Shown here: one piece after another, positions 12,469-60,459 of the stretch
Numbering within the stretch: the first letter of the stretch is position 1
Layout of the letters: each line of letters opens with the position of its first letter
NCBI GenBank assembly: GCA_040757595.1
Contig: JBFLWP010000004.1
Coordinates: forward strand, 62,001 to 126,000
DNA from: Nitrospirota bacterium
GTDB taxonomy: Bacteria > Nitrospirota > Nitrospiria > Nitrospirales > Nitrospiraceae
Reading direction: 5' to 3'
DNA length: 64,000 nt
Notes under the pieces: model-generated
The model's database searches: none
Seen by the model: only the letters and a program-made list of their open reading frames with translations
What the model was told of the DNA's origin: nothing
Translations under genes and position numbers: made by a program

Positions 12469-12482
12469 GGGAGATCCAAGAG

Positions 12483-12567
12483 CAAATGGCTGATGGCTGA
12501 TGGCCAATGGTTGGGCCCCTCTTCTTGTCCTGATTCTCAGGCGTGTGCCATACGCCATTCGCCATAG
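12483..12567. repeat. Quasi-palindromic word-repeat element, word GGCTGATGG
   Basis: Left arm (12485-12510): AATGGC TGATGGC TGATGGC CAATGG. Right arm (12547-12566): GCCATACGCCATTCGCCAT. The loop is about 36 nt. The element lies between the redoxin start and the stop of the next gene. Confidence 0.75.
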
Positions 12568-12576
12568 GCTCTTATC

Positions 12577-28902: not shown

Positions 28903-28920
28903 GCCGGCGCAAAAGCGCGG

Positions 28921-29000
28921 GTGCGGGGCGAGAGGCGCGAGGTGCTAAGGGGCTAGCAGAGAGATGTCCTCGTGCCTCTTGCCCCGAACCTCTGGCCTGG
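28921..29000. repeat. Quasi-palindromic word-repeat element, word GAGGCGCGAGG
   Basis: Left arm 28923-28955 (GGGGCGAGAGGCGCGAGG and onward), right arm 28968-29000 (CCTCGTGCCTCTTGCCCC and onward). The loop is about 12 nt. It lies between the purA promoter and the tRNA-Ala promoter. Confidence 0.75.
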
Positions 29001-29213: not shown

Positions 29214-29352
29214 AGGCGAGAGGCGCGAGGTGAGCGGCTAGAGGGAAGAACGTTCTCGCAACTGGATGGTCCCTATCGGCCTCGTGTCCGACCCTCACTT
29301 TTCCGATTCTTCGCTCTTCTACCCCTAGCCTCTAACCCCGCACCCCTCGCCT
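29214..29352. repeat. Quasi-palindromic word-repeat element with long loop, word GAGGCGCGAGG
   Basis: Left arm 29215-29245 (GGCGAGAGGCGCGAGG and onward), right arm 29321-29352 (CCCCTAGCCTCTAACCCC and onward). The loop is about 75 nt with no open frame of note. The right arm ends 9 nt before the ABC-F start codon. Confidence 0.7.
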
Positions 29353-32652: not shown

Positions 32653-33480
32653 GTGCGCGCACAGATCAACGGCATCACCCTGGCCTACGACGACCGGGGA
32701 ACGGGCCTGCCCCTGGTCTTCCTCCACGCCTTCCCCTTCAACCGGACCATGTGGGAGCCCCAGCTCAAGGGACTCTCGGACCGGTTCCGGGTCGTCACGG
32801 TGGACCTGCGCGGCCACGGGGAGTCCGACGCGCCCCTCTGGCACTACACGATGGACCAGTTCGCCGACGACGTGAAGGGACTCCTGGACCATCTGGCCGT
32901 CGAGCAGGCGGTCCTGGCCGGTCTCTCCATGGGCGGATACCTGGGCTTCGCCTTCTATCGGAAGTATCCGGAGCGGATCAAGGCCCTGGTGTTCGCGGAC
33001 ACGAGGGCCGAAGCGGACAAGCCGGAGACGGTGGCCTGGCGGTTCAACCTGGCGCAGAGGGTGTACAAGGAGGGGGCCAAGGCCGTGGCCGACGAGATGG
33101 GACCGAAGCTGCTCTCTCCCAAGACCTACCAGACGAAGCCGGACCTCGTGGCGCTCGTGCGGGCCATCAGCTTGAGCACGCCGACAAGCGGGGCACTGGG
33201 GGATCTGATGGCGCTCGCGGAGCGGCCGGACTCGACTCCACTCCTCGGACGGATCGCCTGTCCGACCCTGGTGCTCGTCGGACAGGACGACGCGCTCACG
33301 ACGGTGGAGGAGAACCGGCGGATCGCCGAGAGGATCAGGGGGGCCCGCTTCGAGGTCATCCCCGCAGCCGGCCATCTGAGCAACCTGGAGCAGCCCGAGA
33401 CCTTCAACCGGGCGGTGCGATCGTTCCTGGAGACGATCGCACCGCCGGGCATGAGGCTAGAGGCGCGGGGCTCGGGGTAA
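32653..33480 (+). CDS. Alpha/beta-fold hydrolase
   Basis: 275 aa from a GTG at 32653 with AAGGAGG 5 nt upstream. Alpha/beta hydrolase core: GLPLVFLHAFPFNRTMWEPQL for the oxyanion region, VDLRGHGES, the nucleophile elbow GLSMGGYLG with Ser, Asp in LVGQDDALTT, and His in PAAGHLSNLEQPETF. It most resembles the 3-oxoadipate enol-lactonase / BioH-like branch, but the substrate is not determinable. The last residues (MRLEARGSG) come from the adjacent repeat element; the natural end is probably ETIAPPG. A larger frame from 31282 is antisense to rarA and is not the start. Confidence 0.88.
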   Translation: MRAQINGITLAYDDRGTGLPLVFLHAFPFNRTMWEPQLKGLSDRFRVVTVDLRGHGESDAPLWHYTMDQFADDVKGLLDHLAVEQAVLAGLSMGGYLGFAFYRKYPERIKALVFADTRAEADKPETVAWRFNLAQRVYKEGAKAVADEMGPKLLSPKTYQTKPDLVALVRAISLSTPTSGALGDLMALAERPDSTPLLGRIACPTLVLVGQDDALTTVEENRRIAERIRGARFEVIPAAGHLSNLEQPETFNRAVRSFLETIAPPGMRLEARGSG

Positions 33481-33526
33481 GAGAAGAGGACCCCGCCCCT
33501 TCGCCTTGAGCCCCGCGCCCCGTGCC
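33452..33526. repeat. Quasi-palindromic word-repeat element, word GAGGCGCGGGGC
   Basis: Left arm 33452-33480, which encodes the C-terminus of the hydrolase and its stop. Right arm 33491-33526 (CCCCGCCCCTTCGCC and onward). The loop is 10 nt. It fills the gap to the folE stop. Confidence 0.78.
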
Positions 33527-38723: not shown

Positions 38724-38789
38724 CGTGGTCGGAGGTCAGGGGTCAGTGAAAGACCTTCGGGGCTCACTGACCACCGACCACTGACCACC
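38724..38789. repeat. Quasi-palindromic word-repeat element, word GGTCAGTG
   Basis: Left arm 38724-38749 (GTGGTCGGAGGTCAGGGGTC and onward), right arm 38763-38788 (TCACTGACCACCGACCACTG and onward). The loop is about 13 nt. It lies between mdh and the 140-aa hypothetical. Confidence 0.8.
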
Positions 38790-42897: not shown

Positions 42898-44228
42898 CGC
42901 GTCCTCCGTCGCCTCGGCGCCGATTGCTGCTTTCCCTCATGGCGCTGGTCCAGGTCGTCTTCGCCTCCTTCTCCCCGGTCTCCATGACCGCCGTTGATCC
43001 GAAAACGCTCCCCGTCACCACCGATCTGGCCCGCCAGCTCCGCGCCCACGTGGACGAGCTGGCGAGCCCGAAGCTCCGGGGGCGGAAGCCCGGCACGGAG
43101 GGGAACCGAGCCGCCGCCGCCTATCTGGAGGCGCGTTTCCGCGAGGTCGGCCTCCACCCCCTGGCCTCGCTGGGCGGCTACCGGCAACCGATCTCCGACG
43201 AGTTGGGGGACAACGTGATCGGGGTCAGACCGGCACAAGCAGGGACGAGCGCGCGCTGGCTGCTGATCGGGGCCCACTACGACCACCTGGGAGGGAACTA
43301 TCTCGGCGCCGATGACAACGCCTCGGCCCTCGCGATCCTCATCGAGACCGCCCGATCGCTGCCGCCTCTGCCGACCCATCCGGTCCTGTTCGTCGCCTTC
43401 AACGCGGAAGAGCCGCCGTACATCCGCACCGAGCAGATGGGCTCCCAGCACTTCGTGGATCACCTGCCGGCGGAGATCGGCTCGCCGTCGGACATCCAGG
43501 CCGTCGTCATCATGGACCTGATGGGCGGCGTCCATTGGGCGCCGTTGCAGAACGTCCTGTTCGCCGCCGGCGCCGAGAAGAGCCCCGCCCTTTATCGGCG
43601 CCTCTTGGAGACAATGGGGGCGGCCGATCGTGAGACGTTAGACGTAAGACGTGAGACGTTGGGTGAAATGCACAAAGGAGTAGGACCTTCCTCCCCCTCG
43701 TCACGCTTCACGTCTCCCGGTTCACGTCTCACGGTTCTGCCGGTCGGCATGCACCTGGTCGAGGAAATTCCGCTCATGGGGCAGGTCGCCTTCAGCGACT
43801 ACGATGCCTTCCGCAACCGGTCGGTGCCGTTCCTCTTCCTCTCGGCCGGCCGGACGCCCCGCTACCACCAGCCGACCGACCTGCCGGACACCCTCCACTA
43901 CGAGCGGATGGCGGCGACCGTCCCTTGGCTCCGAGACTTGATCGAGCGGCTCGATCAGGATCGCGAACCCTACCGGTTCGATCCGACCCGGATCGAGTTC
44001 GCCGACGAGGTCGCGACGTTCCGGCCCCTGGTCGAGCAGGCCGCCGAGTGGGGCACCAGGATTCCCGGCACCTCGCCGATCTCCCTCTGGAAGCTGAAGC
44101 GGGATCGAGACTGGCTGGCGCGGCTGGACCCGGCCGCGCCCAGACCGGAGGATGTCACCAGGCTGGAGCGGCTTTCGCTCCGGATGCAGTGCCTCCTCAC
44201 CGACTTGCCCGTCTGCTTTTTACTCTGA
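42894..44228 (+). CDS. M28-family zinc aminopeptidase with an in-frame word-repeat insert
   Basis: 444 aa, TTG start overlapping the FTR stop (TTGA). An N-terminal hydrophobic stretch (LLLSLMALVQVVFASFS) marks export. The metal-binding motifs are GAHYDHLG, GADDNASALAIL, FNAEEPPYIRTEQMGSQHFV, VIMDLMGG, and a late YHQPTDLPD (His). Residues about 246-280 (RETLDVRRETLGEMHKGVGP and onward) are encoded by a quasi-palindromic element inserted in frame, between the metal-binding core and the C-terminal part. The protein may still fold, as the insert is in a loop. Substrate unknown. Confidence 0.85.
   Translation: MTRPPSPRRRLLLSLMALVQVVFASFSPVSMTAVDPKTLPVTTDLARQLRAHVDELASPKLRGRKPGTEGNRAAAAYLEARFREVGLHPLASLGGYRQPISDELGDNVIGVRPAQAGTSARWLLIGAHYDHLGGNYLGADDNASALAILIETARSLPPLPTHPVLFVAFNAEEPPYIRTEQMGSQHFVDHLPAEIGSPSDIQAVVIMDLMGGVHWAPLQNVLFAAGAEKSPALYRRLLETMGAADRETLDVRRETLGEMHKGVGPSSPSSRFTSPGSRLTVLPVGMHLVEEIPLMGQVAFSDYDAFRNRSVPFLFLSAGRTPRYHQPTDLPDTLHYERMAATVPWLRDLIERLDQDREPYRFDPTRIEFADEVATFRPLVEQAAEWGTRIPGTSPISLWKLKRDRDWLARLDPAAPRPEDVTRLERLSLRMQCLLTDLPVCFLL
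43629..43733. repeat. Quasi-palindromic word-repeat element inside the M28 peptidase gene, word GTGAGACGT
   Basis: Left arm 43630-43667 (GTGAGACGTTAGACGTAAG and onward), right arm 43699-43733 (TCACGCTTCACGTCTC and onward). 105 nt, so the reading frame is kept; it adds about 35 residues. Confidence 0.85.
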
Positions 44229-54241: not shown

Positions 54242-55927
54242 TTACGACTCCGTTGCGATGAAGCTCGGGACGAGCCGAACCGGATGGTAGTCCCGCTTGG
54301 ATCGCGCCAGGCTCGGGAGCCCCGAGTCGTCCATGGTGTTGACGAACTCGTAGCCGAGGGCGGCCGTCTCGCGGCAAGACTCCCGAAAGAGAAACTGGGC
54401 CAGCCCGGGGAGCGTCCGGTCTGCGACTTCCAGCAGGACACAAAACACGGACGGGGACCGTTCGAAGCCGAAGGTATAGGCGCGCACCACGCCGTCCACC
54501 CGTGCGACGCGACCGACGAGCCCCAGCGCGCGATGGTGCGCGAAGGCTTCGCGATGGGCCGCTTCCGCGTCGGCCAGCATCTGCCGCGCGACGGGGTCAT
54601 GGGTCGCCCGGCGCTTCTGCTCCGTCCATTGCCGGAACAGGGCCAGGCACTCTTCCCGAAGCCCCTCCTCGTAAGGTCCGTACCGGACCCGTCTGGTCCG
54701 GACGACCCGGTTGCAGGCGGCGCGCTGCGACTTGTACCGATCCCCCTTGAGACCGGCCAGGTCGGCGGTCCGGTAGAGATAGTCCGGGTCCTTGGGCTTC
54801 ACCGGATAGCCCAGCGACTCGAAGACCGGCTTCAGTTCTTCCGACACGTTCTCGACTCGGGTGACGGCCGAGCCGCGATTCCTTTTCCGCATGAATTTGA
54901 AACATGCGGACAGAATGGGCGCAAGGTTCGAAGCGCTAGGCCAGAGGAACGAATCACACCCCGTGCCTCGCGCCTCGCGCCCCGTGCCTAACTCAGCAGG
55001 CAGCGGCGGGAGGGGCATGTAGAACCCGTCCCCATATTCAGCGAACAGGCAAACCTGGCCGGCGATCTCGGTCCACGAATAGGTCAGCAGCGACCGCCAG
55101 ATGAAATGGGGCGCGAAGGCGTAGGCGGCGAGCGGCGTTGGAAAGGACCGCATCGCCTGCTCGAACCGGGGCCGGTCGGCGAGTTCAAGAGGATGCAATG
55201 TGATGGGTGATGGGTGATGGGTGATGGGTGAAGAAGGAGGAACGCTCTTGACGCCGGGGACCCGTCGCTCCGAGAAATGCAACGGGTGCCCTTCACGCCT
55301 CACGAGCCGTTCGGTGAGCTTCGGGAGCGGCTTGACGACGACGACATCCTCCTGGAACCGGCCGACGAGCCGTGGATGTCCGGCGAAGATGTCCCGCGTC
55401 TCGTCCCGCTCGATCAGGTCCGCGATCCGATCGGCGTACGCCTCAAGCTCGGACACGGGGCCAGAGGCACGAGGCAAGGGGGAAAACTCGGTCCCCTCGC
55501 CCCCCACCCCTCGCCCCTCGCCTGTTTGCAAGAAAGGACACTTGGTATCCCAGCCCAGCACCACTTGGCTCCGGTCGGCGCTCCACATGACCGCCAGCGG
55601 ATAGAGCTGGCAGTCGAGCGGGCGCGCCTCGTAGATGCGGCACCGGGAAGCGGAGTGATCGAACGCCGGGCAGAGGTAGCCTTCCCCGACCGGATTGGGG
55701 ACGAGCGCCACCTGACAGCCGGCAGGGTCGGGAAACTGGGACGGCCCGACCCCGTGGGCGACTGCCCGCTGGATCTCCTCCCGGGTGAAGTACGGGCGCA
55801 GGAAACTGTCCGGCTCCGGGAAGCGGCAGCAGACATCGCACTGGAAACAGGCCCGGCTGGGCACGTATTGCGGCAGCGGAATCACGGGGATGAGCGTGCC
55901 CGGCCGCTTCGAGTCCGTCTGATTCAT
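54242..55927 (-). CDS. Fusion: YkgJ-type Cys-rich domain and DUF2156/GNAT-like domain, carrying three word-repeat inserts
   Basis: 561 aa. N-terminal YkgJ domain with CDVCCRFPEP, GYLCPAFD, CRIYEARPLDCQLYPL (Cys cluster for zinc or Fe-S). The C-terminal half from LADRPRFEQAM is a DUF2156 (LPG-synthase-like/GNAT) domain with AYAFAPHFIWRSLLTYSWTEIAGQVCLFAEYGDGFYMPLPPL, and FVNTMDDSGLPSLARSKRDYHP near the end. Three low-complexity stretches (GEGRGVGGEGTEFSPLPRAS, SSPITHHPSPITLHP, GTGREARGTGCDSFL) are the translations of word-repeat elements in frame. Function unknown; aminoacyl-phospholipid synthase-like activity is only a fold-based guess. Confidence 0.78.
   Translation of the reverse strand: MNQTDSKRPGTLIPVIPLPQYVPSRACFQCDVCCRFPEPDSFLRPYFTREEIQRAVAHGVGPSQFPDPAGCQVALVPNPVGEGYLCPAFDHSASRCRIYEARPLDCQLYPLAVMWSADRSQVVLGWDTKCPFLQTGEGRGVGGEGTEFSPLPRASGPVSELEAYADRIADLIERDETRDIFAGHPRLVGRFQEDVVVVKPLPKLTERLVRREGHPLHFSERRVPGVKSVPPSSPITHHPSPITLHPLELADRPRFEQAMRSFPTPLAAYAFAPHFIWRSLLTYSWTEIAGQVCLFAEYGDGFYMPLPPLPAELGTGREARGTGCDSFLWPSASNLAPILSACFKFMRKRNRGSAVTRVENVSEELKPVFESLGYPVKPKDPDYLYRTADLAGLKGDRYKSQRAACNRVVRTRRVRYGPYEEGLREECLALFRQWTEQKRRATHDPVARQMLADAEAAHREAFAHHRALGLVGRVARVDGVVRAYTFGFERSPSVFCVLLEVADRTLPGLAQFLFRESCRETAALGYEFVNTMDDSGLPSLARSKRDYHPVRLVPSFIATES
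54921..54988. repeat. Word-repeat element in the YkgJ-DUF2156 gene (first)
   Basis: Right arm 54958-54988 (ACCCCGTGCCTCGCGCCTCG and onward), faint left arm 54921-54945. Encodes GTGREARGTG and neighbours. Confidence 0.65.
55200..55231. repeat. GTGATGG tandem tract in the YkgJ-DUF2156 gene (second)
   Basis: Four perfect GTGATGG units and GTGA, the same 28-nt tract as at 884-911. No clear right arm. Encodes SPITHHPSPITLH. Confidence 0.8.
55454..55524. repeat. Word-repeat element in the YkgJ-DUF2156 gene (third)
   Basis: Left arm 55454-55482 (ACGGGGCCAGAGGCACGAGG and onward), right arm 55492-55523 (TCCCCTCGCCCCCCACCCCTC and onward), loop about 9 nt. Encodes GEGRGVGGEGTEFSPLPRAS. Confidence 0.78.
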
Positions 55928-56183: not shown

Positions 56184-57002
56184 ATGAACGGCTTCCCCCT
56201 CGTGATCGCCCACCGGGGCGCGTCCGGACTGGCTCCGGAGAATACGGCCTTGGCCGTGGCCCGCGCGATCGCCCTGGGCGCCGACATGGTCGAGGTGGAC
56301 GTGCGGCTCACCCGCGACGGCCATCCGGTGATCCTGCACGACCCGGTGATCGGCCGGACGGTCCGCTGGCCGACCGGCTCTGCCGGCGCACGCCCGGTCC
56401 GGCGCCGCATCGCAAACCTGACGCTGGCCCACATCAGAAGGATGGACGCCGGTTCGTGGTGGAGCCACGCCTGCGCCGGCCTTCCGGTTCCCACCCTCGA
56501 CGACGTGTTGGACCAGTGCGCCGGCCGGATTGCGGTGAACCTGGACGTGAAGGGCGGCCGGGACATGCGCGCGGCGGCACGGCGCCGACTGGTCGCGCAC
56601 CTGGAGCGGGCGCTGCTGGCCCGTCACGCCAAGGACTGGGTGCTCATCTCCTCCGAAGACCTGCGCTTGCTGAGCCTCGTCCGCACCGCGATGCCGGCCG
56701 CCTGGCTGGGGGTCCTGGTCGGTCCGGCCTCCCGCCTGCCGCAGGCCGTTCGCGCGGCTCGCCGGCTCAAGGCCTGGTCCCTGCACCTGCCCCTGGCCCT
56801 CATCAATCCGGAGCTGGTCCGGTCCGTCCATGCAGAAGGACTCAGGCTGCTCGTCTACACCGTCAACCGAACCCCGTCCCTCAGACGGCTGATCCGGCTC
56901 GGCGCGGACGGCGTCTTCACCGACTGGCCGGACCGGCTCCTGGCCGCCCGCGGGGTTCCTTTGGCCAAGCCGATCAGCAAGCCTGCACGCGACAGGCAGT
57001 AG
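56184..57002 (+). CDS. Glycerophosphodiester phosphodiesterase
   Basis: 272 aa. Hydrolyses glycerophosphodiesters to glycerol-3-phosphate and an alcohol. Catalytic motifs: IAHRGASGLAPENT, MVEVDVRLTRDGHPVILHDP (metal Glu and Asp), and the downstream ISSEDLRLL. No signal peptide, so it is probably cytoplasmic. ATG at 56184 or GTG at 56181 just before. The C-terminal PISKPARDRQ is not conserved. The promoter and long leader upstream are noted separately. Confidence 0.93.
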   Translation: MNGFPLVIAHRGASGLAPENTALAVARAIALGADMVEVDVRLTRDGHPVILHDPVIGRTVRWPTGSAGARPVRRRIANLTLAHIRRMDAGSWWSHACAGLPVPTLDDVLDQCAGRIAVNLDVKGGRDMRAAARRRLVAHLERALLARHAKDWVLISSEDLRLLSLVRTAMPAAWLGVLVGPASRLPQAVRAARRLKAWSLHLPLALINPELVRSVHAEGLRLLVYTVNRTPSLRRLIRLGADGVFTDWPDRLLAARGVPLAKPISKPARDRQ

Positions 57003-57109
57003 GCGGGAAACAATAATGGTAGACACGCAGCGAGCACCGCTCGCCCATCGGCGATCCCCTTGTTTGGATGTCGGACCCCATGTTACGATCAGCCCCGTCC
57101 GCGGACGGA

Positions 57110-57153
57110 TCGTCACCCGTCATTCGTCGTGCGAAGACGGGTGACGCGTGACC
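57110..57153. repeat. Quasi-palindromic word-repeat element, word GACGGGTGACG
   Basis: Left arm 57110-57130 (CGTCACCCGTCATTCGTCGTG), right arm 57134-57153 (AGACGGGTGACGCGTGAC). Shared block GACGGGTGACG; the loop is a few nt. It lies just before the ATP-grasp-like gene and contains a possible GTG start (57141). Confidence 0.72.
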
Positions 57154-57167
57154 CAGACGACCGGCTG

Positions 57168-58739
57168 ATGGCTCTCGCGCGCGATCTCACACACCCGACC
57201 AGGAACGCCGCCGACCTGCACCGGTGCGTCACCGTCCGGGACTCCCTCGTCCGCGACGGCCTGTATGACGCCGCAGGAGACGGCCAGGGGGGGGCAAGCA
57301 CCCCGGTCGCGACCCGCTGGCGCATCGCTCCCGGTCCGTTCCTCCTCTCGCCCGCCGAGGCGCGCTTCTTCCACACGCTGGGGAACCATCTCCTGGCCTT
57401 TTACCGGGCGCTGAACCGCCTGTACCAGGAGAGCGTCCGGGGCACGCAGCCAGCCTGGGTGGCGGCTTACCTGGACCAGGGAAAGCCGGAGTCGCTCGTG
57501 GCCTACAGCCGCATGAAGCGGTTCAAGGACCTGCTGCCCGCCGTGATCCGGCCGGACATCATCCCGACGAACGAGGGGCCGACCGGACACCGGATGGCGA
57601 TCACGGAGCTGGACTCGGTCCCCGGGGGCATCGGACTGACCGGCGCCCTCGGAAGGGTCTACGGTCAATGGTCAGTGGCCAGTGGTCAGTGCAAAGAAAA
57701 TCAAACCGAATCTCTCACCACCACCCACCGATCGCCGCCCACCGACCACGAAACTTGGGAGATCGTCGGCGGCGCGGACGGGATGGTCCGGGGATTCGCC
57801 GCCATGGTGCGCCACCAGACGGCGGGCCGGGGCGGGTGCGTGGGGATCGTTGTATCGGAGGAGGGCAAGGATTACCGGCCGGAGATGACCTGGGTGGCGG
57901 CCCGGCTGCGAGAGGAGGGCCTCGACGCCCACTGTGTGGAGCCACGGGAGATCCGGTTCACGGAAGAGACGCTGGTCCTGGATCGGGAAGGGTCGGCCAG
58001 GCCGGTTGCCCTCGTCTACCGGTTCTTCGAGCTGTTCGACCTGCCCAACGTGCCCAAGGCCGAGCTCATCATGTACAGCGCCAAGAAGGAGCGGACGGTC
58101 GTCACTCCTCCGTTCAAGCCGGCTCTGGAGGAAAAGCTGGCCTTCGCCCTGCTCCACCACCCGGTGCTGGCGCCCTTCTGGTCACGGGAGCTGGGCGAGG
58201 AGTCCTTCGCGCTGCTGAGCGACCTGGTGCCGAGAACCTGGATCCTGGACCCCCGGCCCCTGCCGCCCTCGGCCGTGATTCCCAACCTGTCCGTGGCCGG
58301 CCGCGCCGTGGCCGACTGGCGAGACCTGGCCATCGCCTCGCAGAAGGACCGCCGGTACGCGGTGAAGCCGTCCGGATTCTCCGAGCTCGCCTGGGGCAGC
58401 CGGGGCGTGTCCGTCGGGCACGACCTGTCCCAGTCGGAGTGGGCGGACGTCCTGGACCAGGCGCTGGCTTCCTTTCCCACGACCCCGTACGTCCTGCAGG
58501 AATTCCACAAGGGCCGCCAGTTCGACCTCAGCTACCACGACGAGCGCACGGACGAGGTCGTCCCGATGGCCGGGCGCGCGCGCCTGTCCCCCTACTACTT
58601 CGTCACCGGCGACCGGGCGGAGCTGGCCGGCATCCTGGCCACCGTCTGTCCGCTGGACAAGAAGCTCATTCACGGGATGCGGGACGCGATCATGGTCCCC
58701 TGCGCGGTCTCAACCGGCGGGCACGAGGTACGAGGCTAG
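57168..58739 (+). CDS. Hypothetical protein, possible ATP-grasp fold, with word-repeat insert
   Basis: 523 aa from ATG at 57168. Not clearly recognised. Features: GPFLLSPAEARFFHTLGNHLLAFYRALNRLYQ, PDIIPTNEGPTGHRMAITELDSVPGGIGLTG, RYAVKPSGFSELAWGSRGVSVGHDL (Lys and Gly-rich as in ATP-grasp nucleotide loops) and VLQEFHKGRQFDLSYHDE. Related proteins are sometimes annotated as ATP-grasp or glutathione-synthase-like. Residues about 166-195 come from an in-frame word-repeat element. The last residues (GHEVRG) come from another element. No metabolic link to neighbours is visible. Confidence 0.7.
   Translation: MALARDLTHPTRNAADLHRCVTVRDSLVRDGLYDAAGDGQGGASTPVATRWRIAPGPFLLSPAEARFFHTLGNHLLAFYRALNRLYQESVRGTQPAWVAAYLDQGKPESLVAYSRMKRFKDLLPAVIRPDIIPTNEGPTGHRMAITELDSVPGGIGLTGALGRVYGQWSVASGQCKENQTESLTTTHRSPPTDHETWEIVGGADGMVRGFAAMVRHQTAGRGGCVGIVVSEEGKDYRPEMTWVAARLREEGLDAHCVEPREIRFTEETLVLDREGSARPVALVYRFFELFDLPNVPKAELIMYSAKKERTVVTPPFKPALEEKLAFALLHHPVLAPFWSRELGEESFALLSDLVPRTWILDPRPLPPSAVIPNLSVAGRAVADWRDLAIASQKDRRYAVKPSGFSELAWGSRGVSVGHDLSQSEWADVLDQALASFPTTPYVLQEFHKGRQFDLSYHDERTDEVVPMAGRARLSPYYFVTGDRAELAGILATVCPLDKKLIHGMRDAIMVPCAVSTGGHEVRG
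57662..57750. repeat. Word-repeat element inside the ATP-grasp-like gene, word GGTCAGTG
   Basis: Left arm 57662-57691 (GGTCAATGGTCAGTGGCC and onward), degenerate right arm 57714-57750 (TCACCACCACCCACCG and onward), loop about 22 nt. In frame; encodes GQWSVASGQCKENQTES and neighbours. Confidence 0.72.
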
Positions 58740-58888
58740 AGGCGCGAGGTAATGGGGAAGCAGGACTTCAGGGAATTGGTTGTATGGCAGAAGGCCAAAG
58801 ACCTCGCCGTCGCCGTGTATCGCATCTCCGAGAGCGGAGCCCTAACAGGCTGCGCACCTCGCGCCCCGAGCCTCGCGCCTCGCACCCC
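58721..58888. mobile_element. Word-repeat hairpin enclosing an S23 four-helix-bundle gene fragment
   Basis: Left arm 58721-58750 (GCACGAGGTACGAGGCTAG and onward), right arm 58853-58888 (CACCTCGCGCCCCGAGCC and onward). The 102-nt centre (58751-58852) is the truncated S23/TIGR02436 gene. It is the only element here with coding sequence in its loop and may be the least decayed copy. Confidence 0.7.
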
Positions 58889-58892
58889 ATGA
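58752..58892 (+). pseudogene. Truncated S23/TIGR02436 four-helix-bundle protein
   Basis: 46 codons. MGKQDFRELVVWQKAKDLAV then AVYRISES matches the start of the 23S rRNA intervening-sequence protein family (KDFREL.VWQKA..LA..YR). The matching part stops after about 29 residues; the rest (GALTGCAPRAPSLAPRTP) is read through the right repeat arm. Full-length members are about 115-125 aa, so three of the four helices are missing. Complete homologues are found in 23S intervening sequences and in Avd of diversity-generating retroelements; no reverse transcriptase is nearby. Confidence 0.75.
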
Positions 58893-58922
58893 AATTGGCA
58901 AAGAGAGCATCCTGATTCTGCA

Positions 58923-59270
58923 ATGGCGCTCACCCTCTATCATGTGCATTGGTGTCCCGAGTGCGCGATCGTCCGCGAGAAGCTCGAGGAGCTGGGGCTG
59001 GAGTACGAGGACGTGGTCGTGCCGGACGTGCGCATGTTTCGGAAACAGGTGCACGAGGTCTCGGGACAGTATTACGTGCCCGTGCTGAAGGACGGCGATC
59101 TGGTCCTGACCGAGACCCGGGACATCCTGTCGCACCTCGACGCGCGGCATGGGAAGGGCGGCTCCGGAACGGACGCCCCGCCCACGCCCGCCGCTCGAAC
59201 CGACCGGAAACCCGACGCGCTGAGCGACGACGACCGGTATCCGTCGTGCCGCCTGTTCCCAGGGAAGTAG
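58923..59270 (+). CDS. Glutaredoxin/GST-N-like protein
   Basis: 115 aa. TLYHVHWCPECAIVREKLEELGLEYEDVVV has the CPEC (C11, C14) redox site. VSGQYYVPVLKDGDLVLTETRDILSHL resembles the cis-Pro and GSH-binding parts of the GST N-terminal/glutaredoxin fold. The C-terminal 40 residues are polar. It sits between the truncated S23 fragment and the KamA gene. Its substrate is unknown. Confidence 0.85.
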   Translation: MALTLYHVHWCPECAIVREKLEELGLEYEDVVVPDVRMFRKQVHEVSGQYYVPVLKDGDLVLTETRDILSHLDARHGKGGSGTDAPPTPAARTDRKPDALSDDDRYPSCRLFPGK

Positions 59271-59292
59271 GACTGGCCGAAGGAGATCTGCG

Positions 59293-60459
59293 ATGGAGGA
59301 CTGGAGAAAAAGCCTGGCCGAGAGCGTCGTGAAGCCTCGGGACTTGGCCAAGCACCTGGGCGTTGATCCCGAGGAGATCGAGGCCGTCGTCGGCGACTAT
59401 CCGATGCGCATCACGCCGACCGTCCTGGCCACGATCAAGAAGCCGGGGGACGCGATCTGGAAGCAGGTGGTGCCGGACCCGGCCGAGATGGCGGACTTCG
59501 ACGCGCCCGACGACCCGCTCGAAGAAGACACGATGAGCCCGGTGCCGCACCTGGTGCACCGCTATCCGGACCGGGTTCTCCTGATGGTCACCAACCAGTG
59601 CCCGATCTACTGCCGCTTCTGCACGCGCAAGCGGCTCGTCGGGAAGCCGGGATTCCTGAAGAAGGGCGAGCTGGACCGGGCGATCGCCTACCTGCGGGCC
59701 CACGCGGAGGTCCGCGACGTGATCCTGTCCGGCGGGGACCCGCTGCTCCTGCCCGACCACCTCCTGGAGCGGATCCTGAAAGCGCTGCGCACGATCCCGC
59801 ACCTGGAGATCATCCGGCTCGGGTCCCGCGTGCCCGGCACCCTGCCGCAACGCGTCACGCCGAAGCTCTGCGAGATCGTGAAAAAGTACCATCCGATCTA
59901 CATGAACCTGCACTTCAACCACCCGGACGAGCTGACGCCCGAGGTCAAGGCCGCCTGCGGCATGCTCGCGGACGCGGGGGTGCCCCTGGGCGCCCAGACG
60001 GTGCTGCTCAAGGGCGTCAACGACGACCCTGAGGTGATGAAACGGCTGGTCCACCAACTGCTGCAGGCCCGGGTGAAACCCTATTACCTCTACCAGGCGG
60101 ACCTGACCAAAGGTACCAACCACTTCCGGACCACGGTGGAGACCGGCATGGCCATCGTGCGCGCGCTGCAAGGCCACACGAGCGGGATGGCGGTCCCCCA
60201 TTTCGTGATTGACGCGCCCGGAGGCGGCGGCAAGATCCCGATCCTCCCGCCCGACTACCTCGTGCACCTGGACGAGGACGGCGCCGTGCTCAAGAACTAC
60301 GAGCACAAGACCTTCCACTACCCCCAGCCTGCGAACGGGAACGGCCCCTTCGACATGGCTCAGGGCAGGCGGGAGTTGCCCATGGTCGGGGCCCGTCGGA
60401 CCAACGGCGGACAGCCGGCCCTGAGCGGATGCGGCAACGGACCGTTCGAGGTTCCGTGA
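59293..60459 (+). CDS. KamA/EpmB-family radical SAM aminomutase
   Basis: 388 aa. The radical SAM cluster is C103-x3-C107-x2-C110 (CPIYCRFCTRKR). DVILSGGDPLLLPDHLLERIL, GSRVPGTLPQRVTP, HFNHPDELTPEVK and GVNDDPEVMKRLVHQLLQARVKPYYLYQADLTKGTNHFRT are characteristic of lysine 2,3-aminomutase. SHDAPGGGGK-like VIDAPGGGGKIPILPPDYLVH follows. PLP and zinc sites of this family lie in the C-terminal half. It may act on free lysine or, like EpmB, on EF-P lysine; the EF-P genes are absent. The last about 40 residues (NGNGPFDMAQGRREL and onward) are encoded by a short palindromic repeat. Confidence 0.88.
   Translation: MEDWRKSLAESVVKPRDLAKHLGVDPEEIEAVVGDYPMRITPTVLATIKKPGDAIWKQVVPDPAEMADFDAPDDPLEEDTMSPVPHLVHRYPDRVLLMVTNQCPIYCRFCTRKRLVGKPGFLKKGELDRAIAYLRAHAEVRDVILSGGDPLLLPDHLLERILKALRTIPHLEIIRLGSRVPGTLPQRVTPKLCEIVKKYHPIYMNLHFNHPDELTPEVKAACGMLADAGVPLGAQTVLLKGVNDDPEVMKRLVHQLLQARVKPYYLYQADLTKGTNHFRTTVETGMAIVRALQGHTSGMAVPHFVIDAPGGGGKIPILPPDYLVHLDEDGAVLKNYEHKTFHYPQPANGNGPFDMAQGRRELPMVGARRTNGGQPALSGCGNGPFEVP
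60345..60426. repeat. Short palindromic repeat in the 3' end of the KamA gene
   Basis: CCCCTTCGACATGGCTCAGG (60345-60364, continuing GC) and the inverted GCCCTGAGC (60418-60426). Similar CCTTCGACAxGCTCAGG motifs recur in many bacterial genomes (from memory, unverified). It adds NGNGPFDMAQGR to the protein. Confidence 0.6.

Follow-up and report, generated by a model that had tools for sequence, protein, structure and literature searches.

The window, a 64,000-nucleotide stretch of a Nitrospirota genome, contains a hairpin with the start of an S23 gene in its loop, and this feature is probably what remains, after decay, of one copy of a small mobile element made up of an S23 gene and its heptad arms. 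We likewise favor, at a similar level of confidence, the broader reading that S23 genes flanked by inverted heptad arrays are mobile elements with nonautonomous derivatives, akin to the intervening sequences of 23S rRNA, in which the S23 protein would recognize its own heptad. The basis for this reading is the anatomy of the elements, the match between protein subfamily and heptad word, the existence of filled, decayed, and empty sites, the link to word copy number, and purifying selection on the gene.

Anatomy of the window hairpin

The preliminary description of the window had reported a hairpin with the N-terminal ~29 residues of an S23 protein in its loop, and this structure was borne out, with coordinates that agree to within 2 nt. 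Its parts are as follows.

58719-58750, plus strand: left arm, an RGGCNMG-type heptad array (GGGCACGAGGTACGAGGCTAGAGGCGCGAGGT) from which the gene upstream takes its stop codon (TAG)
58752-58840, plus strand: 5' fragment (~29 codons) of an S23 gene (PF05635/TIGR02436) of the GKKGFKDLxVWQ subfamily
58841-58855, no strand: junction left by the deletion, joining the S23 fragment to the right arm; complete relatives contain no stretch that matches it, and no origin in the missing portion of the gene was found
58856-58887, minus strand: right arm, the inverted array of the left-arm heptad (RGGCNMG type)

The two 32-nt arms are 81% complementary, lie 105 nt apart, and include an exact 11-nt pair (GAGGCGCGAGG/CCTCGCGCCTC). 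When the hairpin segment was folded alone as RNA, the energy was -86.6 kcal/mol (z score, -3.56), and 1 of 200 shuffled sequences was equally stable. Translation of the loop from the ATG at 58752 yields MGKQDFRELVVWQKAKDLAVAVYRISESGA and then departs from the frame of the S23 family. The match of the fragment to PF05635 (E = 0.0058 over 22 residues, 17.3 bits) is under the gathering cut-off of 33.8, as expected because only a fragment is present; L006, a full-length gene of the same subfamily in the same genome, matched with E = 1.6e-32. DNA similarity between the fragment and L006, as well as other genes of this subfamily, extends from the ATG to approximately codon 27 to 29 and then ends, and the window copy is therefore an internally deleted, nonfunctional gene. 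No Rfam family was matched in a search of positions 57000-60000, and neither a terminator nor a sigma-70 pattern was found at the site. With an S23 ORF inside the loop of terminal inverted repeats, accompanied by heptamers, the feature is organized like an intervening sequence (IVS) of 23S rRNA, but it is not located inside a 23S rRNA gene; the flanking genes, as named by eye, are ATP-grasp-like and GST_N-like.

Complete S23 genes between inverted heptad arms

The preliminary description had proposed a search for arms around the full-length S23 genes of relatives, and most of these genes do have them. Arms were scored by aligning one flank with the inverted other flank and taking the best score. 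S23 matches were present in 116 of the 147 genomes of the window's family, and the median inverted-flank score was 17.6 for 113 complete S23 genes of that family compared to 9.2 for 816 shifted control positions of the same geometry (Mann-Whitney U test, P = 4e-60; the P values in this work treat related genomes as independent). For 81 S23 genes at loci from many phyla, one of them labeled as a Methanophagales archaeon, the corresponding medians were 18.4 and 9.7 (P = 4e-36). When all ORFs of the sampled loci were scanned, the score exceeded 14.5 for 111 of 170 S23 ORFs versus 33 of 566 others (P = 3e-57). The arms of approximately one-quarter to one-third of the S23 genes were weak or undetectable by the score used. 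This genome has six S23 loci, and on visual inspection inverted arms enclose every one of them, the repeated word differing from locus to locus; the score was clear for L005, L006, and L009, was clear for L007 only when wider flanks were used, and was weak for L008 and L010/L011. On cyanobacterial plasmids, arms were found at 10 of 10 S23 genes, many of them near-perfect, and the S23 gene of a Nostoc edaphicum plasmid has (TAGGGAG)n on either side. Avd genes, which are of similar size and fold, had heptad arms at 0 of 22 loci, with scores of 7 to 13.5.

The arms are periodic. Within the window's family, arm identity was 0.54, 0.49, and 0.41 at lags of 7, 14, and 21 versus ~0.25 at most other lags, and in other phyla the values at these three lags were 0.61, 0.60, and 0.57. 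The median arm is 31 nt long and comprises 4 to 5 units. As tandem 7-nt units in intergenic DNA, the arms are heptameric short tandem repeats. The preliminary description is amended here: the repeat consists of tandem 7-mer arrays, with an 8-nt unit in a few clades, and the GAGGCGCGAGG-type arm word holds for one S23 subfamily only, the other subfamilies carrying other words.

Several individual locations were recorded. Two S23 elements, L280 (Anabaena sp. 90 pANA02) and L285 (Pseudanabaena galeata pPg_01), are situated between cas6 and cas4 of type I-D CRISPR-Cas operons, and their heptad words differ from each other. Plasmids 1 and 2 of Calothrix brevissima NIES-22 (L276 and L277) both carry the same integrase/S23 segment with the same arms. 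Four S23 elements with differing proteins and arms (L007, L062, L082, and L086) lie just upstream of what is seemingly the same YbgC-like thioesterase gene, a site that has been used repeatedly in this genome and in another genus.

ORF-less hairpins and word copy number

In the window, 36 tracts show heptad periodicity and 18 hairpins were called, ~12 to 13 of which look genuine, compared to 3 to 10 tracts and 0 to 4 hairpins in shuffled window sequence. Most of the convincing hairpins match arm words of S23 genes. The ORF-less features, to which no strand is assigned, are as follows.

884-965: hairpin, GTGATGG word, like the arms of the THKDLDVWKK subfamily
2332-2403: hairpin, RGGCNMG word, as in the arms of the S23 fragment
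12478-12573: hairpin, TGATGGC word, like the arms of L007 of this genome
27395-27498: hairpin, CGTTCGT/GTGAAGCG word, like the arms of the NFRDLEVWKLGK subfamily
28920-28990: hairpin, RGGCNMG word
29214-29352: hairpin, RGGCNMG word
33455-33526: hairpin, RGGCNMG word
38725-38788: hairpin, GGTCAGTG word, by eye like the arms of L009 of this genome
39230-39304: hairpin, RGGCNMG word
43621-43742: hairpin, GTGAGAC/GTAAGAC word, like the arms of L005 of this genome (KPHKKLDAW subfamily)
57663-57749: heptad insert, GTCAGTG word on the left and CACCGACC on the right, in frame in the ATP-grasp-like gene at 57060-58739

A gene on the minus strand of the window (54242-55927) apparently has three in-frame heptad inserts (~54953-54994, 55190-55245, and 55451-55529).

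The (RGGCNMG)n word occurs in 130 copies in this genome, the highest number among the 147 genomes, and the reversed-pattern control in 9. Pairs of arrays of the tested word point inward, with 23 convergent pairs versus 1 divergent pair. Copies of an octad word, which belongs to another S23 subfamily, had a median of 27 in the 7 genomes with the matching S23 gene and of 0 in the 140 others (P = 2e-7). An association of the window word with its matching S23 subfamily was also obtained (P = 5e-4), with presence of the subfamily known for five genomes only and the discovery genome included in the comparison. Many copies of a word also occur in genomes where no match to the corresponding S23 subfamily was found (for example, G002, G108, and G123), some of the assemblies being incomplete, and this pattern could reflect gene loss or assembly gaps. 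The suggestion made earlier, that the ORF-less hairpins are nonautonomous relatives of S23 elements, is supported by the words that they have in common with S23 arms and by a copy number that tracks one tested subfamily.

MITEs, REPINs, and Rickettsia palindromic elements are short, nonautonomous hairpins found between and within genes. The ORF-less hairpins resemble MITEs in being short, in having terminal inverted repeats and no ORF, and in having ends in common with S23 genes of the same genome (in several cases by score and in one case by eye), a comparison in which the S23 element would be the autonomous member. They differ from all three groups in that their partner appears to be a four-helix-bundle protein rather than a recognized transposase and in that their arms are tandem heptads. 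A dispersed repeat of another kind, by eye not heptad-periodic, was noted at ~1042-1188 of L059, with ~60 to 200 nt per match and many copies in genus g18.

Filled, decayed, and empty sites

A comparison of empty and filled sites, also put forward in the preliminary description, likewise came out in favor of its interpretation. The gap between the ATP-grasp-like and GST_N-like genes, which holds the S23 fragment in the window, measures only 17 to 19 nt in three relatives, is a short spacer without heptads in members of at least two genera, and elsewhere contains hairpins that lack an ORF and belong to at least six other word families. The in-frame GTCAGTG insert lies in a loop of the ATP-grasp-like protein, and orthologues have nothing at this position or inserts apparently of other families. 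At a second site, genome G076 carries a complete element, four sister species of the same genus have a short heptad-free gap, G060 has only a remnant of the left arm (with nearest flanks that are ~94% identical), and G112 has kept an S23 fragment and the right arm. No recognizable target-site duplication was seen when G076 was compared to G060, a neighbor that is partly decayed and not clean, and neither a transposition event nor an exact target duplication was found among the compared sites. On the basis of these presence/absence patterns in sequence, we infer that the S23 gene moves with its arms.

The same patterns bear on the possibility that heptad hairpins were there first and that S23 genes home into them, in which case the arms would be a target rather than a part of the element and each ORF-less hairpin would be an unoccupied site. 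S23 genes are indeed far outnumbered by ORF-less hairpins, and a paper on Coxiella places rRNA intervening sequences in helix loops (PMC4990558). Homing is nevertheless unlikely, given that the four sister species are heptad-free at the G076 site, that heptads are present in the species that have S23 or fragments of it, that the insert-free orthologues of the window site are short, and that the origin of the hairpins would be left unexplained.

Heptad word, protein subfamily, and selection

At nonhomologous sites, the similarity of arms was at the background level of ~9.8 for proteins of less than 50% identity, 15.0 at 60 to 70%, and 19.5 above 70%, whereas control flanks remained flat at 8 to 9 across the identity classes. 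When the window's family was compared to other phyla, arm similarity was 15.9 at 60 to 70% protein identity (n = 61). None of 999 Mantel permutations of arm word versus protein equaled the observed association. For example, (NNTCAGC)n is the word of the RDFRxLKVWEKAH clade not only in the window's family but also in a Methylobacillus, a member of the Blastocatellia, a deltaproteobacterium, and a planctomycete. Within a single element, the left and right arms resemble each other more closely than do arms taken from different elements of the same clade (16.8 versus 13.3, P = 8e-6). The S23 gene is under strong purifying selection, with a median dN/dS of 0.08 for 79 pairs, 17 of which are at different sites. 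Mismatches in arm pairing exhibited no RNA wobble bias (117 of the G.U type versus 104 of the A.C type) and so give no sign of RNA-level selection on the sense strand; the form that is bound may be either RNA or DNA.

Purifying selection of this strength and the covariation of word and protein also accord with S23 being a nucleic acid-binding regulator, with the hairpins as operators or RNA targets that are kept for regulation rather than spread, and regulatory roles for heptamer repeats were guessed at in earlier reports (PMC4692102; PMC2700814). Against this stand the sites that switch family or disappear between related genomes, the in-frame inserts in coding loops, and the many independent S23 copies, each with its own arms, and we judge regulation to be slightly less plausible than homing.

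Predicted fold and candidate partners

The fold predicted for S23 matches those of two solved proteins with five chains, 2gsc and 2rld, and has a weaker match to Avd of diversity-generating retroelements (DGRs; 4dwl, TM 0.76, rmsd 2.0); the Pfam bAvd match reached only E = 0.022. The fold in common between S23 and Avd, as stated in the preliminary description, thus stands, but Avd genes are without the arms. We know of no reported nuclease or polymerase activity for S23. An S23-type protein of Xanthomonas is a homopentameric ring according to the Coxiella paper (PMC4990558).

The hairpins could in principle be REP/BIME-like and moved in trans by a Y1 (RAYT) transposase, with S23 as a passenger. 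Y1_Tnp was matched in 17 of 20 element-bearing genomes, including three matches in this one, but G004, G038, and G071 have S23 elements (and G004 has 57 octad sites) with no Y1_Tnp match, and the word tracks the S23 subfamily; movement by Y1 is accordingly improbable, and this partner was rejected as not universal. Still less probable is a retroelement in which an Avd-like S23 works with a reverse transcriptase supplied in trans: the fold is that of Avd, which is a component of solved DGR ribonucleoproteins, but RVT_1 had 0 matches in this genome and none in three other S23-bearing genomes searched, and Avd genes are armless. The absence of an RVT_1 match in this genome led us to reject a reverse transcriptase partner.

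Two Avd-like genes of this RVT_1-less genome (G000:C4:29724-30032, L252, and G000:C26:24326-24580) match NF033474 above the cut-off and encode orphan Avd proteins. At 5603-6158 of L170, a gene that by eye resembles a REP-associated tyrosine transposase (PNHVHLL motif) has palindromes on its flanks. Carriage by phages found no support, since a purpose-made, consensus-like query yielded no S23 match among 50,697 phage records.

Proposed element and its relation to known repeats

A complete S23 element is ~0.45 to 0.55 kb long and consists of ~4 to 5 tandem heptanucleotides, the S23 gene, and the same array inverted. Because the array is inverted at the far end, either strand can form a long stem whose loop contains the gene. 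The S23 ring, through its subunits, most likely binds the heptads of the element that encodes it, and protein subfamily and heptad spelling would consequently evolve together. Loss of the gene by internal deletion would generate short heptad hairpins of about 60 to 140 nt, which may still be mobile in trans while a matching S23 protein is present and would insert into intergenic DNA and into protein loops that tolerate them. Copying might be accomplished by host replication or repair acting on single-stranded hairpins, a step suggested by the lack of a reverse transcriptase match in this genome and the lack of a Y1 transposase match in some element-bearing genomes.

Heptameric repeats have been described previously, with GGGAATC in Xanthomonas, often as convergent inverted pairs, and GGGGAYT in Nostoc, generally without association with mobile elements (PMC4692102). 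Heptanucleotide elements occur in Geobacter metallireducens (PMC2700814), and tandem heptamers across prokaryotes were found by SPADE, with 'no clear clue' to function (PMC6344855). The S23 arms are like these published repeats in being tandem 7-mers; unlike the present work, the three reports draw no link to S23, as far as searched (PMC4692102; PMC2700814; PMC6344855). Intergenic heptamer repeats are common, according to the SPADE report (PMC6344855), but an origin of the arrays by simple-repeat slippage, with a position beside S23 due to chance or a shared intergenic location, is scarcely credible in view of the strong enrichment over neighboring ORFs, the convergent orientation, and the subfamily-specific words across phyla. 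The unexplained heptamer repeats published for prokaryotes may well be arms of S23 elements. We found no paper that joins S23 with heptad arrays outside rRNA in a search that mostly did not extend to subscription papers and preprints, and the novelty of the link is for that reason not certain.

We give about even weight to a wider proposal: that S23 elements are a class of mobile element without a recognized recombinase, spread across bacteria and present on at least one contig of an archaeon, whose pentameric protein of four-helix-bundle fold recognizes the tandem heptads on either side of its own gene, with the unexplained heptamer repeats of prokaryotes as its remains and the rRNA intervening sequences as one branch. 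Linking S23 with the heptamer repeats offers a testable answer to both, since it supplies a protein, a probable binding site, and an element carrying the two, and the heptad that each S23 protein should bind can be predicted from sequence alone. The likeness to the 23S rRNA intervening sequences of Coxiella, Leptospira, and Brucella lies in the S23 ORF within an inverted-repeat stem loop (PMC4990558), whereas elements of the type described here occur all over genomes and plasmids at places other than rRNA genes, have derivatives that lack an ORF, and carry words that are specific to the subfamily. In the Coxiella intervening sequence, tandem heptamers (GACAGAT) directly precede the S23 start, and one strain has a deletion in the ORF, according to the same paper (PMC4990558).
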